From the NCBI GenBank assembly GCA_028282465.1, contig JANQHX010000053.1, forward strand, positions 1 through 64,000: a stretch of 64,000 nt of DNA, given 5' to 3'. The position numbers and the translations under genes were made by a program. Shown here piece by piece: positions 34,369 to 43,326 of the stretch. Source of the DNA: Gynuella sp. (GTDB lineage Bacteria; Pseudomonadota; Gammaproteobacteria; Pseudomonadales; Natronospirillaceae). The notes below the pieces were generated by a model. The model saw only the letters and a list, made by a program, of their open reading frames with translations. It did no database searches and was not told where the DNA came from. Numbering within the stretch: the stretch's first letter is position 1; each line of letters begins with the position of its first letter.

Positions 34369-34758
34369 TTGGACAAAAATATGAAAATCCTGGTTGTTGA
34401 TGATTTTTCAACCATGCGCAGGATTGTTAAAAATCTACTGAGAGATCTTGGTTTCACAAATACGCAGGAAGCTGACGATGGCAACACTGCTTGGCCCATG
34501 TTGCAAAACGGAGATTTTGATTTTCTAGTCACGGATTGGAATATGCCAGGCATGACCGGCATCGAATTATTACAGAAAGTCAGATCAGACGACCGCTTAA
34601 AAGCACTACCTGTTTTAATGGTAACGGCTGAAGCGAAGCGAGACCAAATTGTTGCAGCCGCACAAGCAGGTGTTAATGGCTATGTTGTGAAACCGTTTAC
34701 CGCTGCAGCATTGAAGGAAAAAATCGAAAAGATTTTTGAGCGAGTGGATGCTAGCTAA
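34369..34758 (+). CDS. cheY: Chemotaxis response regulator CheY
   Basis: 129 residues. The TTG at 34369 is chosen because AGGAGG lies five bases upstream; ATG 34381 is too far from it. D-D pair in [11 protein letters not shown], phosphorylation Asp in [13 protein letters not shown], switch Thr in VTAEAKRDQ and Lys in [13 protein letters not shown] are intact. It binds the FliM switch when phosphorylated. It heads the cheY-cheZ-cheA-cheB unit after a 196-base gap following fliA. Confidence 0.96.
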
Positions 34759-34772
34759 GTACCGAGGTCAAG

Positions 34773-35552
34773 ATGTCTCAGCTTGAAAGAACTTTTAAAG
34801 CCGAGTTTGAGAAGCTTCTTCGGGAAAAAGCAGAAGAGCTTCAACAAAAACTTGATGATGGGGATCTCAATGAGGCGGTGAATTTAATTCAGGCGCTTCA
34901 AGAAGCAAGAGATCAAAGCCTCTACCAAGAGGTGGGTCGTTTAACCCGTGCATTGCATGGCGCGATCCGAAATTTCCATATAGATGCTGCAAAGTCTGAA
35001 TCCGTCGAAAACATTTCAGATATGACGGATGCTACCGACAGACTTAGCTATGTAGTGGAAATGACAGAAAAAGCAGCTAATAAAACCATGGATATCGTGG
35101 AAGAAAGTATTCCTATTGCCGATACCCTGAGTAATCACGCTGAAGAGCTGAAAAACGAGTGGCAAAAACTCAGAAATAGAGAATTAAATGCCGACGAATT
35201 TAGAGAGCTCTATTGGAAAATTGACGGTTTCTTTGGGCAGCTTGACCAAGACACCAAATCGTTAAATAGCCATTTATCCAACATTTTGTTGGCTCAGGAT
35301 TACCAAGACTTAACGGGTCAGGTCATTCAAAAAGTGACCGGCTTGGTTAGAGAAGTTGAGGCGAGTTTAGTGGATCTGGTGTTTATGGCTAGCCAGGTTG
35401 AATCCATTACTGGTGTGGCCCATGAAGAGGAAGCACCGGTAGAAGAGGATATGCATGCGGGCCATGGTCCGCAGATTGCCCCAGAAGAAAATGAAAATGT
35501 TGTCAGCGGACAAGATGAAGTTGACGACTTGCTGTCGAGCTTGGGCTTTTAG
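34773..35552 (+). CDS. cheZ: CheY phosphatase CheZ
   Basis: 259 residues. The catalytic region LLAQDYQDLTGQVIQKV carries the Asp and Gln used to dephosphorylate CheY-P. A long helical hairpin precedes it. The C-terminal DDLLSSLGF is the CheY-binding peptide. It follows cheY by 14 bases and ends 10 bases before cheA. Confidence 0.95.
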   Translation: MSQLERTFKAEFEKLLREKAEELQQKLDDGDLNEAVNLIQALQEARDQSLYQEVGRLTRALHGAIRNFHIDAAKSESVENISDMTDATDRLSYVVEMTEKAANKTMDIVEESIPIADTLSNHAEELKNEWQKLRNRELNADEFRELYWKIDGFFGQLDQDTKSLNSHLSNILLAQDYQDLTGQVIQKVTGLVREVEASLVDLVFMASQVESITGVAHEEEAPVEEDMHAGHGPQIAPEENENVVSGQDEVDDLLSSLGF

Positions 35553-35562
35553 GAGTTAATGA

Positions 35563-37941
35563 ATGAGTTTTGAAGCTGACGAGGAAATCCTACAGGACTT
35601 TTTAGTTGAAGCTGGAGAGATTCTGGAACAGTTAGGTGAGCAGCTCATCGAAATGGAGCAGCGCCCCAATGATGCTGATCTCCTGAATGCGATTTTCCGT
35701 GGATTCCATACCGTGAAAGGTGGCGCAGGATTTTTGCAGCTCACGCCGTTGGTTGATTGCTGTCACGTGGCAGAAAATGTGTTCGACATTTTAAGAAACA
35801 ACCAACGTACTGTATCCACTGAACTGATGGATTATGTGCTCCAAGCACTAGATGCGGTGAACGACATGTTTGCTCAAGTCAGTGCCGGCGAGATGCCAGA
35901 ACCTGCAGATCCTGCTTTGATCGAGGCACTTCATTACTACGCCAAACCTCAATCGGAAGACGATGTCTCCGCCGCTCCAGCCGCCAGCTCAGAACCTGTT
36001 GCTGAAGAACCTGCCGCTGGAGCACCAGTACCTGAAGAAACAATATCAGAAGAAGCTCTACCAGAAGAAACGGCACCTGCAGCTGAGCAATCGGTTTCAG
36101 AAGTTGGTGAACCGGGTTCAGATATTACGGATTCTGAATACGAAGAACTGTTAGATGCGTTGAATCCGCAAACACCTGATCAGTCAGCTCAAGCAGCAGC
36201 TTCTAAAAACACTCCTGAAAGTACTCAAACCACTGCCCCAACACCTTCATCATCCAGTGACGATGTTGATTTATTTGGAGGAGATGACAGTAGCTCTGCT
36301 AGTGATACCGATGAAATAACGGAAGATGAATTTGAAGCCTTATTAGATCAACTTCATGGTAAGGGAAAATTTGGTGGTGCTGAAGATGAACCGCCCAAGG
36401 CTCCGGAGGCATCGACACCAGAACCTACCGCCGCTGTATCTTCTTCGAATGAACTAGACGGCGATGAAATTACCGATGACGAATTCGAAGCGCTTTTAGA
36501 TAATCTTCATGGTAAGGGCAAATTTACTGGCGCCGTTGATAATGAGTCCGAATCAGAATCTAAACCAGCGGCAGCTCCTAAACCTGCTGAATCAAAAGAA
36601 CCCAAAAAAGTACCGGAGCCCCCCAAGCCCCCTGAAACTTCTAAGCCAGCACCTGCACCAGCAGCAGCGCCGAAACCAAGTACACCCAATGAAGCCATAC
36701 AACCAGCAGCTAAAGCGCCACCTGCACCTGCGGCGGCACCAAGAGCACCCGCTGCCGGAGAAAAACCAGGTACCGCTGTTGCGCAAGAAGCAACCGTTCG
36801 TGTAGACACCAAACGCTTGGATGACATTATGAATATGGTGGGCGAACTGGTATTGGTGCGTAACCGATTGGTTAGATTGGGTGGTCAATATAATGACGAA
36901 GGTTTGCAAAAAGCGGTGGCTAATTTAGATGTGGTGACCGCAGATCTACAAACATCCGTGATGAAAACACGAATGCAGCCCATTAAAAAAGTATTTGGGC
37001 GTTTTCCCCGTGTGGTTCGAGACTTGGCGCGTAATCTGAAGAAAGAAGTTAATCTTGAACTGATAGGTGAAGAAACAGATTTAGATAAAAACCTTGTTGA
37101 AGCCTTGGCTGATCCTCTTGTTCACTTGGTTAGAAATTCTGTGGATCACGGTGTTGAATCACCAGACGTCCGTGAGAGTAAAGGCAAACCCAGAACCGGT
37201 AAAATTGTTTTATCTGCGCAACAAGAAGGCGACCATATTCTGTTGACCATTGAAGACGATGGCGCAGGCATGGATGCAGAAAAATTAAAGGGTATTGCGG
37301 TCGAAAGGGGCGTGATGGATCAGGATTCTGCCGACAGATTAAGCCCGAAAGAATGTTTTAATTTAATTTTTGCCCCTGGTTTCTCTACCAAAACTGAAAT
37401 TTCAGATGTTTCAGGTCGTGGTGTGGGAATGGATGTGGTGAAAACAAAAATTTCTCAACTCAATGGTACTGTCGATATCGAAAGCGAGTTAGACAAAGGC
37501 ACTCGCATGTTGATCAAAGTGCCACTCACGCTCGCAATTATGCCAACGCTCATGGTGGTGTTGGGAGAACAAGCGTTTGCGCTCCCCTTGGTTAATGTCA
37601 ACGAGATATTCCATTTGGATATCAGTAAAACCAATGTGGTCGACGGCAAAGAAGTTGTGGTGGTGAGAGGAAAGCCATTGCCGTTGTTCCATTTAAAAAG
37701 TTGGTTAGTACCCCAAAGTGAACATGAGCTGTCCAGCTCTGCGCATGTTGTGGTGGTATCTGTGGGTACTCAGCGAGTTGGATTTGTGGTCGACCAATTG
37801 GTGGGTCAAGAAGAAGTCGTCATCAAGCCCTTGGGAAGAATGCTCCACGGTACACCGGGTATGTCTGGAGCCACAATAACAGGTGATGGCAGAATCGCAT
37901 TGATTCTAGATGTGCCCAGCATGCTCAAATATTACGCCTAA
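35563..37941 (+). CDS. cheA: Chemotaxis histidine kinase CheA
   Basis: 792 residues. Domains in order: Hpt P1 with the phosphoacceptor in IFRGFHTVKGGAGFLQL (about residue 48); a long Pro/Ala/Glu-rich linker (~130-410) where the usual P2 domain is not obvious; dimerisation helices (DDIMNMVGELVLVRNRL); ATPase N, G and F boxes (HLVRNSVDHGVE, DDGAGMD, GRGVGMDVV); and the CheW-like P5 domain. Three copies of a short motif sit in the linker at about residues 187, 250 and 301. The start has AGGAG at the right distance. It autophosphorylates and passes phosphate to CheY and CheB. Confidence 0.96.
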   Translation: MSFEADEEILQDFLVEAGEILEQLGEQLIEMEQRPNDADLLNAIFRGFHTVKGGAGFLQLTPLVDCCHVAENVFDILRNNQRTVSTELMDYVLQALDAVNDMFAQVSAGEMPEPADPALIEALHYYAKPQSEDDVSAAPAASSEPVAEEPAAGAPVPEETISEEALPEETAPAAEQSVSEVGEPGSDITDSEYEELLDALNPQTPDQSAQAAASKNTPESTQTTAPTPSSSSDDVDLFGGDDSSSASDTDEITEDEFEALLDQLHGKGKFGGAEDEPPKAPEASTPEPTAAVSSSNELDGDEITDDEFEALLDNLHGKGKFTGAVDNESESESKPAAAPKPAESKEPKKVPEPPKPPETSKPAPAPAAAPKPSTPNEAIQPAAKAPPAPAAAPRAPAAGEKPGTAVAQEATVRVDTKRLDDIMNMVGELVLVRNRLVRLGGQYNDEGLQKAVANLDVVTADLQTSVMKTRMQPIKKVFGRFPRVVRDLARNLKKEVNLELIGEETDLDKNLVEALADPLVHLVRNSVDHGVESPDVRESKGKPRTGKIVLSAQQEGDHILLTIEDDGAGMDAEKLKGIAVERGVMDQDSADRLSPKECFNLIFAPGFSTKTEISDVSGRGVGMDVVKTKISQLNGTVDIESELDKGTRMLIKVPLTLAIMPTLMVVLGEQAFALPLVNVNEIFHLDISKTNVVDGKEVVVVRGKPLPLFHLKSWLVPQSEHELSSSAHVVVVSVGTQRVGFVVDQLVGQEEVVIKPLGRMLHGTPGMSGATITGDGRIALILDVPSMLKYYA
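36121..36525 (+). repeat. Three copies of a D-[ED]-I-T-x-[DS]-E-[FY]-E-x-L-L-D-x-L motif in the CheA linker
   Basis: Copy one starts at 36121 (DITDSEYEELLDAL). Copy two starts at 36310 (DEITEDEFEALLDQLHGKGK). Copy three starts at 36463 (DEITDDEFEALLDNLHGKGK). Copies two and three share the tail HGKGKF. The copies are separated by Pro/Ser/Glu-rich spacers of about 30-45 residues. Confidence 0.85.
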
Positions 37942-37975: not shown

Positions 37976-38995
37976 ATGCCTTTTACAGTTCTGGTGGTTG
38001 ATGATTCATTATTTTTTCGTCAACAAATCAGAGGAATTATTAACGCTCACCCAGAGTTAAAAGTTATTGGTGAAGCCAATAATGGTCGTGAAGCGATAGA
38101 CAAAACTCTCAAGCTAAAACCCGATGTCATCACAATGGATTATGAAATGCCATTGATGGATGGGATTACCGCGGTTAGAGAGATCATGGCTAAACAGCCA
38201 ACCCCTATCTTAATGTTTTCATCCCTTACTCAAGCTGGCGCACGCATTACATTAGACGCCTTGGAAGCGGGTGCAGTTGATTATTTACCCAAGGGCTATG
38301 AAAACGTCGCCAATCAACAAAGTTCATTGCGTAAGCAGCTGATAGAAAAAATTCTGGCAGTTGTACATACCAATAAAAAAGCTAAGGCGCCGCCCAGACC
38401 AAGGCCAGCAGCTTCCGTTCGCCCGGTTTCGAAAAAGCCTGATATTGTATTAATTGGTACGTCCACTGGCGGGCCAGTCGCGTTGCAAAAAGTGTTAACA
38501 AAATTACCCGCTGAATTTGCTGCTCCTCTTTTATTAATTCAACACATGCCAGCGGCGTTTACCGGTGCATTTGCACAACGCTTGGATAAACAGTGCAAGA
38601 TTAAAGTTGCTGAAGCACGGGATGGGGATAGTTTTTCAAGGGGTGAAGCCTATTTAGCGCCAGGCGGCAAACAAATGATGCTGTCCTCTAAAAATAAATT
38701 AAAAATCATTCCTGGAGATGACCGGCTAAATTATAAACCCTGTGTCGATGTTACCTTCGGCAGTGCGGCAAAATATTACCGCGGAAATGCTTTAGCCATT
38801 GTACTCACAGGCATGGGAGCCGACGGTCGAGAGGGCGCAAGGCTCTTGAAACAAGGGGGTTCTGCAGTTTGGGCGCAAGAAGGCCGAACCTGCACAATTG
38901 ATGGTATGCCTTCTGCAATAGTGAAAGCAGACTTGGCAGATGACATAGTTCCACTGGACAAAATTGCCGAGAATTTGACTGCTCTATTTCGTTAA
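37976..38995 (+). CDS. cheB: Chemotaxis protein-glutamate methylesterase CheB
   Basis: 339 residues. An N-terminal receiver domain (VVDDSLFFRQQI, phosphorylation Asp in VITMDYEMPLMDG) is joined by a basic-Pro linker to the methylesterase domain from about residue 150. The catalytic Ser lies in IGTSTGGPVAL, His in LLIQHMPAAFTGAFA, and Asp in LTGMGADGREGA. It demethylates and deamidates receptors during adaptation. RBS AAAGGTGA precedes the ATG. Confidence 0.96.
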   Translation: MPFTVLVVDDSLFFRQQIRGIINAHPELKVIGEANNGREAIDKTLKLKPDVITMDYEMPLMDGITAVREIMAKQPTPILMFSSLTQAGARITLDALEAGAVDYLPKGYENVANQQSSLRKQLIEKILAVVHTNKKAKAPPRPRPAASVRPVSKKPDIVLIGTSTGGPVALQKVLTKLPAEFAAPLLLIQHMPAAFTGAFAQRLDKQCKIKVAEARDGDSFSRGEAYLAPGGKQMMLSSKNKLKIIPGDDRLNYKPCVDVTFGSAAKYYRGNALAIVLTGMGADGREGARLLKQGGSAVWAQEGRTCTIDGMPSAIVKADLADDIVPLDKIAENLTALFR

Positions 38996-40650: not shown

Positions 40651-40670
40651 CCCGGCTTTGAAAAGCTGGG
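40651..40670 (+). other. Hairpin in the parC leader
   Basis: CCCGGCTT-TGAA-AAGCTGGG gives an eight-base stem with one G-U pair, 24 bases before the parC start. It lacks a T-run, so it is not a good terminator; it may affect translation. Confidence 0.5.
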
Positions 40671-40693
40671 TAAATTTCAAGAGGATTAATGCC

Positions 40694-41464
40694 GTGCATG
40701 TTTGGGCAGTTGCAAATCAAAAAGGCGGTGTAGGTAAAACAACTTCTGCAGTGAGCCTAAGCGCAATGCTCGCTGACAAAGGGCATCGAGTCTTGTTGTT
40801 AGACTTAGACCCCCAAGGTTCCATGACATCGTACTTTAAATATAATCCGGAAGACTTGGATCACAGTGCCTTCGATCTGTTTAATTTCGCCGGCAGCATT
40901 CCAGACGGCCTTGCCAATAAACTGCTTTTGGACACCTCTCACCAGGGCGTGAGCTTATTACCTTCTAGTACCGCGCTGGCGACTTTGGAAAGAAATATTG
41001 CGAAGCAAGATGGTATGGGTTTAGTTGTGAGTAAAACCTTGGCGCAACTATGGGATGACTTTGACTACGCCTTAATTGATAGTCCTCCTTTATTAGGGGT
41101 ATTAATGATCAATGCCTTGGCCGCATGCAAAAAACTTTTAATTCCAGTGCAAACTGAGTTTCTTGCATTAAAAGGGCTGGAAAGAATGATTCACACCCTA
41201 GATATGGTGATGAAATCCAGGCAACAAAGATTTGAATATCTAGTCATTCCCACAATGTTTGATAGACGAACTCAAGCCTCAGTAAAAAGCCTGCTCACTC
41301 TACGAAAAACTTATGAAGGCAATATTTGGTCTTCAGCGATTCCTGTGGATACAAAGCTGAGAGATGCCAGTAGAGAAGGTCTGGCGATATCCGATTTGGA
41401 TAACAATTGTCGTGCAGCTCAAGCCTATCAAAGCCTTTTAAAAAATCTAACAGCGGTGCATTAA
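40694..41464 (+). CDS. parC: ParA-like ATPase ParC, chemotaxis array positioning
   Basis: 256 residues from the GTG at 40694, preceded by AAGAGG; the product MHVWAVANQKGGVGKTT aligns with the Pseudomonas homologue, while a TTG at 40658 would add 12 stray residues. The Walker A motif is KGGVGKTT. LLDLDPQGSMTSYF and DSPPLLGVL are further nucleotide-site motifs. Located with mot and cheW genes, it is the ParC type that sets polar placement of chemosensory arrays, as shown in Vibrio. Not to be confused with topoisomerase ParC. Confidence 0.9.
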   Translation: MHVWAVANQKGGVGKTTSAVSLSAMLADKGHRVLLLDLDPQGSMTSYFKYNPEDLDHSAFDLFNFAGSIPDGLANKLLLDTSHQGVSLLPSSTALATLERNIAKQDGMGLVVSKTLAQLWDDFDYALIDSPPLLGVLMINALAACKKLLIPVQTEFLALKGLERMIHTLDMVMKSRQQRFEYLVIPTMFDRRTQASVKSLLTLRKTYEGNIWSSAIPVDTKLRDASREGLAISDLDNNCRAAQAYQSLLKNLTAVH

Positions 41465-41465
41465 T

Positions 41466-41840
41466 ATGTCTAAAGACAGCAGTAACAATTCTCTAGTGAA
41501 AAACTATTTAGATGAAATGCTAGGAGTTGTGGACAAAGAACCCACCGAGTCTTTAAATCCAGATGTTAAGAAGCAAATTCAAAGTTTCTTAGGCTCTGGC
41601 AGTATTAACCAAGATCAAATAATGGATGTGGTAAAAACACCTGAAACCTCAGATGAATTTCACACGGCTTCTCTTCAACTATTAAGAACCATCAGAAATT
41701 TACCCGATAGTAAATTAAGGGATGCCTGTGTTGAAGAAGGGGAGCGATGCCTTTCTCAAAGCAAAGAAAAGCAATCTCAAATTCGTCTTAAAAATAAAAT
41801 GCCTGAAATGTCTTTCCGACTACTTGCCAAGAAACACTAG
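41466..41840 (+). CDS. Hypothetical protein in the parC-parP cassette
   Basis: 124 residues, starting one base after parC and ending 12 bases before parP, so it is part of that operon. It has no signal peptide or membrane segment and looks all-helical and charged. The N-terminal helix VKNYLDEMLGVVD resembles the N-terminal helix of the neighbouring ParP (LLEYLDVMLHDAT). I recognise no family. A role in array positioning is a guess from context. Confidence 0.8.
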   Translation: MSKDSSNNSLVKNYLDEMLGVVDKEPTESLNPDVKKQIQSFLGSGSINQDQIMDVVKTPETSDEFHTASLQLLRTIRNLPDSKLRDACVEEGERCLSQSKEKQSQIRLKNKMPEMSFRLLAKKH

Positions 41841-41852
41841 AGCAAAACTCAC

Positions 41853-42770
<918 letters not shown>

Positions 42771-42846
42771 TGTTAAAACTGGCACTAATTCAACTGCGTT
42801 CTATGCTTATTGAAAAGAGGTGTTCCACTCAGGAGTTAATGCTGAA

Positions 42847-43326
42847 ATGACTATTCAAGCAGCAAAAGGTGCCGAAGATCCCATGCTTCAATGGGTGACC
42901 TTTAGGTTAGATAACGAAACCTATGGAATAAACGTAATGCAGGTGCAAGAAGTGTTACGTTATACCGAGATTGCCCCGGTACCAGGAGCGCCAAGTTATG
43001 TTCTGGGTATTATTAATCTAAGAGGCAATGTGGTTACCGTTATCGACACCCGTGAACGATTTGGTTTGCCGCCCACAGAAATTACTGACAATACCCGAAT
43101 TGTGATCATTGAAGCTGACGAACAGGTGATTGGCATACTGGTTGATGCGGTTGCGGAAGTGGTTTATCTCAGACAGTCTGAAATTGAAACAACCCCTAAT
43201 GTGGGTAATGATGAAAGCGCCAAGTTTATCCAGGGTGTGTGTCATAAGAACAATGAACTGCTTATTTTGGTTGAGTTGGAAAAAATGATGACCGAAGAAG
43301 AATGGTCTGAAATGGCTGATTTATAA
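42847..43326 (+). CDS. cheW: Chemotaxis scaffold protein CheW
   Basis: 159 residues from the ATG at 42847, which has AGGAG upstream and aligns with Pseudomonas CheW; a GTG at 42820 sits too close to its purine tract. The protein is a single CheW domain (LQWVTFRLDNETYGINVMQV, GIINLRGNVVTVIDTRERFG). It bridges receptors and CheA. It is the last gene of the parC unit, with a strong terminator after it. Confidence 0.95.
   Translation: MTIQAAKGAEDPMLQWVTFRLDNETYGINVMQVQEVLRYTEIAPVPGAPSYVLGIINLRGNVVTVIDTRERFGLPPTEITDNTRIVIIEADEQVIGILVDAVAEVVYLRQSEIETTPNVGNDESAKFIQGVCHKNNELLILVELEKMMTEEEWSEMADL

Follow-up and report, generated by a model that had tools for sequence, protein, structure and literature searches.

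A conserved, repeated helical motif in the linker of a Gynuella CheA without a recognizable P2 domain, and its possible role in docking CheY

The linker between the P1 and P3 domains of a chemotaxis kinase CheA from Gynuella sp. carries three copies of the pattern I-[TS]-[DE]-x-E-[FY]-E-x-L-L-D-x-L, two of which end in HGKGKF, within a region predicted to be disordered apart from these motifs. The gene is located on the stretch of DNA analyzed here, comprising 64,000 nucleotides (assembly GCA_028282465.1, contig JANQHX010000053.1) and referred to as the window. The motif array is far above chance expectation, it is standard across the whole group rather than peculiar to this organism, and it is a conserved, apparently so far overlooked part of F6-type CheA. 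Multivalent docking is the natural reading of such a repeated motif, and we infer a docking function from the sequence. Our proposal, to which we give about an even chance, is that the linker represents an unfolded, multivalent substitute for P2, in which two to four short linear motifs would capture CheY and possibly also CheB. The relevant features of the window are as follows.

34369..34758, + strand: cheY, proposed partner, with R92, Q94 and V103 (E. coli numbering) of CheY-F6 (ORF; receiver domain)
34773..35552, + strand: cheZ, CheY phosphatase (Pfam CheZ, E 8e-74)
35496..35549, + strand: C-terminal CheY-binding tail of CheZ, NVVSGQDEVDDLLSSLGF (ranked first in the window by a profile built from FliM alone; conserved in relatives)
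35563..37941, + strand: cheA, 792 aa (ORF; Pfam domains; AlphaFold2 model; PDB fold matches to CheA P3-P5)
35968..36801, + strand: CheA linker, aa 136-413 (predicted disordered except for three motif helices; pLDDT mostly <50)
36121-36162, + strand: motif copy 1, DITDSEYEELLDAL, aa 187-200 (HMM E 1.4e-11; predicted helix 190-200; without HGKGKF)
36313-36372, + strand: motif copy 2, EITEDEFEALLDQLHGKGKF, aa 251-270 (HMM E 2.5e-15; predicted helix 254-265)
36466-36525, + strand: motif copy 3, EITDDEFEALLDNLHGKGKF, aa 302-321 (HMM E 1.1e-15; predicted helix 305-316)
37976..38995, + strand: cheB, possible second partner (ORF; Pfam CheB_methylest)
40658..41464, + strand: parC, ParA-like polar determinant (ORF; synteny, homologs)
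41853..42770, + strand: parP, with a CheW-like AIF domain and the invariant W272 (Pfam CheW, E 1.1e-8; alignment)
42820..43326, + strand: cheW (Pfam CheW, E 1e-41)

According to Pfam and AlphaFold2, the protein encoded by cheA, which is flanked by cheZ and cheB, follows the order P1 (Hpt), disordered linker, P3, P4 and P5, with the Pfam domains placed at residues 8-100 (Hpt), 410-469 (dimerization), 517-656 (HATPase), and 663-789 (CheW). It belongs to the F6 class of the Gammaproteobacteria, as judged by domains, gene order, and CheY residues: P1-P3-P4-P5 are present, cheY-cheZ lie upstream, cheB, parC/parP, and cheW lie downstream, and the CheY is of the F6 type. The cheY and cheA genes share one reading frame, with a read-through spacer of 269 residues between them.

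Between the Hpt and the dimerization domain, Pfam returned nothing significant for P2. Pfam alone is weak evidence for the absence of this domain since it also overlooks a P2-like region in two further CheAs of the same genome; the AlphaFold2 model, calculated from an input of 32 aligned CheAs, is therefore the stronger evidence. Nothing in this model corresponds to a folded alpha/beta domain separating P1 from P3, and the only helices predicted in the linker (190-200, 254-265, and 305-316) are the three motif copies, with a block pLDDT of ~72-77 at best. In a fold comparison of the model, known CheA P3-P5 structures ranked first. Phmmer searches against PDB sequences gave no useful match, neither for the linker nor for the P2-like regions of the other CheAs, and the motif profile had no match among PDB sequences. 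The same architecture is predicted for the CheA of Aliivibrio fischeri, in which residues ~142-352 are disordered and the helices 178-188, 222-232, and 266-276 coincide with its motifs. The two further CheAs of the Gynuella genome are encoded on other contigs (L002:595-2793 and L003:1444-3654) and contain a P2-like stretch, judged by eye (e.g., WAITFIPGADICRTGNEPYRIINELEGLG). Because Pfam overlooks this stretch, domain scans undercount P2. The motif is absent from both proteins, and this pattern, P2-like stretch present and motif missing, counts in favor of the linker array being a P2 substitute.

The interval 36121-36525 extends exactly from the first to the last residue of the array, and a search of the whole 4.48 Mb genome with the motif profile revealed three sites only, all of them in this CheA linker. 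The profile includes the window sequences themselves, and the independent test is provided by relatives. Copy 1 constitutes a distinct subtype, ending in LLDAL/I with no HGxG; an ortholog of it was found in the complete family members examined, and the subtype is conserved in the position of first copy within the family as well as in numerous CheAs of Pseudomonas, Marinobacter, and Marinomonas. A preliminary description of this locus had listed three copies at these positions, HGKGKF behind two of them, a series of short helices, and no clear P2, and each of these statements agrees with the genome-wide search, the subtype of copy 1, and the Pfam and AlphaFold2 results. Acidic DLF patches (DDVDLFGGDD, GIELFD, VELFGEED) are also seen in CheA linkers, namely at ~36262-36294 (+ strand) of the window and in the loci L031, L032, L034, and L178. 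They are not general, being present in 3 of the 78 CheAs of our named set under a strict pattern.

Comparison of 24 CheAs drawn from the organism's own family and order showed a mean pairwise identity of 0.80 for P1 and likewise 0.80 for P3-P5, in comparison to only 0.23 for the linker outside the motifs. Within this linker, identity amounts to 0.62 for copy 1, 0.76 for copy 2, and 0.82 for copy 3, copies 2 and 3 being about as conserved as the catalytic core of the kinase. Inside one protein, copies 2 and 3 are 0.86 identical, approximately the identity of each between species (0.79 and 0.83), which suggests that they share one common partner.

The named set covers 78 CheAs from 80 loci of Pseudomonas, Stutzerimonas, Marinobacter, Marinomonas, Oceanospirillum, Alteromonas, Pseudoalteromonas, Shewanella, Aliivibrio, Photobacterium, Cellvibrio, and other genera. 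Three copies are present in 44 of these proteins, four in 33, and two in a single one, at a spacing of ~42 residues (range 27-88). Of 369 genomes sampled evenly across the class, 143 contain at least one copy, with one to six copies detected per genome. The motif-bearing genomes of a phylum-wide sample (62 out of 398) all belong to this same class. The anticipated variation of copy number among relatives is thus real. The further suggestion of a repeat peculiar to this organism, or of an altered capture at the pole resulting from it here, finds no support, the array being the standard state of the whole group.

A first indication of the partner comes from the likeness of the motif to peptides that bind CheY. 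In register, I-T-D-D-E-F-E-A-L-L-D-N-L of CheA lines up with L-S-Q-D-E-I-D-A-L-L-H-G-I of the organism's own FliM and with S-G-Q-D-E-V-D-D-L-L-S-S-L of its CheZ, covering the CheY-binding peptides LLSQDEIDALL (FliM) and QDEVDDLL (CheZ). The same CheA/FliM register was obtained unprompted by hhalign (pairwise P = 0.0039). With the N-terminal EIDALL peptide of FliM, CheA shares [LI]-[ST]-x-[DE]-E-[IF]-[DE]-A-L-L; the FliM peptide, however, is a single copy at the N-terminus, has Ile where CheA has Phe, and offers no HGKGKF in register. Similarly, QDEVDDLLSSL of the CheZ tail, encoded by the neighboring gene, aligns with DDEFEALLDQL of CheA, but is a single copy at the extreme C-terminus with Val in place of Phe. 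The CheZ tail itself (QDxVDDLLSSLGF) is almost invariant over the loci read.

When all 29,115 positions of the window ORFs were scored with a FliM-only profile, the best score went to the CheZ tail; CheA copies 2 and 3 took the next two ranks, by a small margin (10.5 and 10.1 vs 9.5 for the following match). The FliM match is unusual against composition shuffles (p ~0.0005), but borderline against shuffles that preserve the hydrophobic/polar pattern (p = 0.055 and 0.045 for copies 2 and 3), so that the ranks two and three, taken as a test for the FliM/CheZ-type pattern [LIV]-[ST]-x-[DE]-E-[IV]-[DE]-x-L-L, have to be read against a p of ~0.05. Copy 1 does not match the FliM profile in the pattern-preserving shuffles (p = 0.63). 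A combined FliM and CheZ HMM, run on the whole genome with E up to 10, recovered CheZ and FliM, but not the CheA motifs, which were also left unranked by a profile made from CheZ alone. Similarity between CheA and FliM beyond the amphipathic pattern hence appears weak. Part of the likeness to FliM and CheZ results from I-[TS]-x-x-E-F being a generic helix start, consisting of a hydrophobic staple and a capping box, which is also common to SHOCT domains.

The second indication comes from CheY. Among 106 CheYs from motif-bearing loci, R92 is present in 91, Q94 in 104, and V103 in all 106. These three positions face P2 in E. coli, and the evolutionary switch of CheY from an F6 to an F7 CheA changed them from R/Q/V to K/N/A (PMC7184735). 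Their near-constancy implies that the P2-facing side of CheY goes with this class of CheA; where F6-type CheAs have no P2, something else would meet this face. In E. coli, CheY is bound by isolated P1 at ~900 uM vs ~0.5 uM for P2, and the tether makes the encounter of P1 and CheY efficient (PMC5705603). As P1 alone binds CheY poorly, a CheA without P2 plausibly needs another tether. Out of the three partners considered in the preliminary description (ParP, CheY, and CheB), CheY would consequently be the best supported, by the FliM/CheZ-like sequence together with the CheY residues. Persistence of the motif in loci without ParP (see below) likewise counts for CheY; cheZ lies upstream of cheA in all of those loci. 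In addition to the borderline shuffles and the profile searches that missed CheA, three points count against this assignment. FliM and CheZ peptides favor phosphorylated CheY, while CheY in its unphosphorylated state is what a tether for phosphotransfer would be expected to hold; neither FliM nor CheZ has anything in register with the HGKGKF tail; and co-occurrence of ParP with the motif is strong (115 of 143 genomes).

This co-occurrence leads to the rival explanation that the motifs are the LID described for Vibrio, i.e., sites at which the AIF domain of ParP docks and which hold CheA in polar arrays, with additional copies raising the capture rate. LID was reported to lie between P2 and P3 and to occur only in CheAs accompanied by ParC and ParP (PMC7534058). 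The array at aa 187-321 of 792 occupies the corresponding position between P1/P2 and P3. In Aliivibrio CheA, three copies of this motif are likewise the only noteworthy ordered elements of the linker. Since LID is placed in a linker holding the motifs only, it probably includes them. The genes for ParC and ParP follow cheA at a distance of a few genes in the window and also lie downstream in nearly all named loci, and W272 of this ParP is likely the counterpart of W305, the CheA-binding tryptophan of V. cholerae ParP, which is replaced by serine (S125) in CheW (PMC5706961). In the class sample, motif and ParP were found together in 115 genomes, the motif alone in 28, ParP alone in 5 (out of 226 without the motif), and neither in 221; as the class-wide search scored seven candidates per genome and overlooked ParP in at least two genomes (G156 and G400), the figure of 28 is too high.

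ParP-less genomes were therefore searched again with all candidates scored and their loci read. At least four families, represented by G038, G209, G364/G148, and G191, retain two to four copies of the motif although no parP stands at its usual place in the locus and nothing in the genome scores above the level of CheW with the ParP profile. G038 has a cheA with four copies, followed by cheB, motC, motD, and cheW; G209 has two copies, with both parC and parP missing at the locus; G364 and G148 have two copies, with parC directly followed by cheW; and in G191, with two good copies and a degenerate one, cheA is followed by cheW. A split CheA in G209 was considered and rejected, the record containing an N-masked run. 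From these loci we conclude that the motif is maintained without ParP, in contrast to the reported restriction of LID; where ParP does occur, it may still make use of the motif. That motif and ParP are both features of one class of CheA accounts for most of their association. The link to LID drawn in the preliminary description accordingly stands in so far as Aliivibrio has the same three motifs, but not with regard to ParP as sole or main partner, and we regard the LID explanation as a whole as unlikely, while granting it some weight.

Several further observations concern these polar loci. L190 and L264 retain parC, have lost parP, and carry cheW directly after parC, offering a natural test of ParC without ParP. 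In L169 and L173 (Photobacterium and Aliivibrio), an extra similar stretch (GKGPTEEELDQAVQPVAAMN and GKGPSAQELEAATCSVAEMN) follows the third copy; it was not seen in the other linkers inspected and is a candidate LID element specific to ParP. In the window, ParP (41853-42770, + strand) shows a run of Glu-Pro dipeptides at aa 90-106, between its N-terminal part and the CheW-like domain. An ORF of 124 aa between parC and parP (41466-41840, + strand) has no NCBIfam match, and a weak homolog (E 1e-4) occurs in the nearest relative examined (L269) only, with none in the named loci.

Docking of the methylesterase CheB instead of CheY, which would bring the adaptation enzyme to the kinase, is suggested by the position of cheB directly after cheA here and in most loci, and by E. 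coli P2, which according to the introduction of a study on Pseudomonas putida docks both regulators (PMC11978298). The motif nevertheless resembles ligands of CheY, and it is intact in L186 and L201, where no cheB lies within ~8 kb downstream of cheA, rendering CheB as the actual target improbable. Equally improbable in our judgment are self-association or intramolecular regulation, in which the helices would oligomerize like SHOCT domains or latch onto P1, P4, or P5. The motif shares the classic N-cap I-T-x-x-E-F and the start ITxxEFE with SHOCT, and weak Pfam SHOCT matches were obtained (18.1 bits here and 29.1 in Pseudomonas alcaligenes, at a cut-off of 27). However, SHOCT is a two-part domain of which the motif covers half: only positions 11-27 of the 28-position profile match (14-27 in this CheA), the preceding half is not conserved, and no single stretch passes the cut-off even in the strong case of P. 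alcaligenes. Furthermore, the confidence of the helices is only moderate (pLDDT in the 70s), which gives no hint that they pack firmly against another part of CheA. The lowest probability, a very small one, we assign to general binding of CheW-like SH3 modules (CheW, CheV, ParP, and P5), which would stabilize arrays in trans. The AIF domain of ParP is CheW-like, cheW is present at the ParP-less loci read that far, and a surface common to these modules could account both for the association with ParP and for the persistence without it; against this stands the replacement of the CheA-binding tryptophan of ParP by serine in CheW, mentioned above.

For the proposed P2 substitute, the following mechanism is conceivable. 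Each motif would be disordered when free and fold upon binding into one N-capped amphipathic helix, capturing CheY by its alpha4-beta5-alpha5 face, to which FliM and CheZ also bind. Several copies on a flexible linker of ~280 residues would keep CheY close to the phosphohistidine of P1, the spacers allowing captured CheY to reach the histidine, and would raise its local concentration as P2 does; the copies would presumably act together by avidity. After transfer, CheY~P would be released or passed on to either CheZ or FliM, both of them competitors for this face. Release is the weak point of this mechanism because the FliM and CheZ peptides prefer CheY~P; speculatively, the change of Ile/Val to Phe could shift the preference for the phosphorylation state. 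CheB could be a second client, by analogy to P2 of E. coli. The array would thus resemble P2 in its place between P1 and P3 and in tethering CheY/CheB near P1, and differ from this folded domain by consisting of two to four one-helix motifs in a disordered linker. Multiple copies occur for P2 as well, which is duplicated in Borreliales according to a survey of thousands of CheAs (PMC10782961).

In the same survey, P2 is reported as missing from more than half of the CheAs, with an extended unstructured region in its place, and as having been called dispensable; no passage mentioning such linker motifs was found in it (PMC10782961). A search of the open-access literature likewise gave no description of the motif. 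The P. putida study draws a Pfam-based CheY-binding domain in CheA (PMC11978298), whereas the motif array is what we find in the Pseudomonas CheAs of our sample, and Pfam finds no P2 in the CheA of P. alcaligenes.

On a broader scale, and as a tentative idea that we consider somewhat doubtful, polar-flagellated Gammaproteobacteria (Pseudomonas, Shewanella, Vibrionaceae, and many others) may have swapped the folded P2 for multivalent CheY-binding peptides of the motor type, so that kinase, phosphatase, and motor would grip CheY via variants of one motif and compete for one surface. If true, CheAs without P2 would not be free of docking sites, but would use linear motifs that domain searches overlook. 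This would affect models of chemotaxis for Pseudomonas, Vibrio, and Shewanella, in which CheA, CheZ, and FliM would have to be regarded as competing for CheY, and it would clarify the nature of the Vibrio LID.
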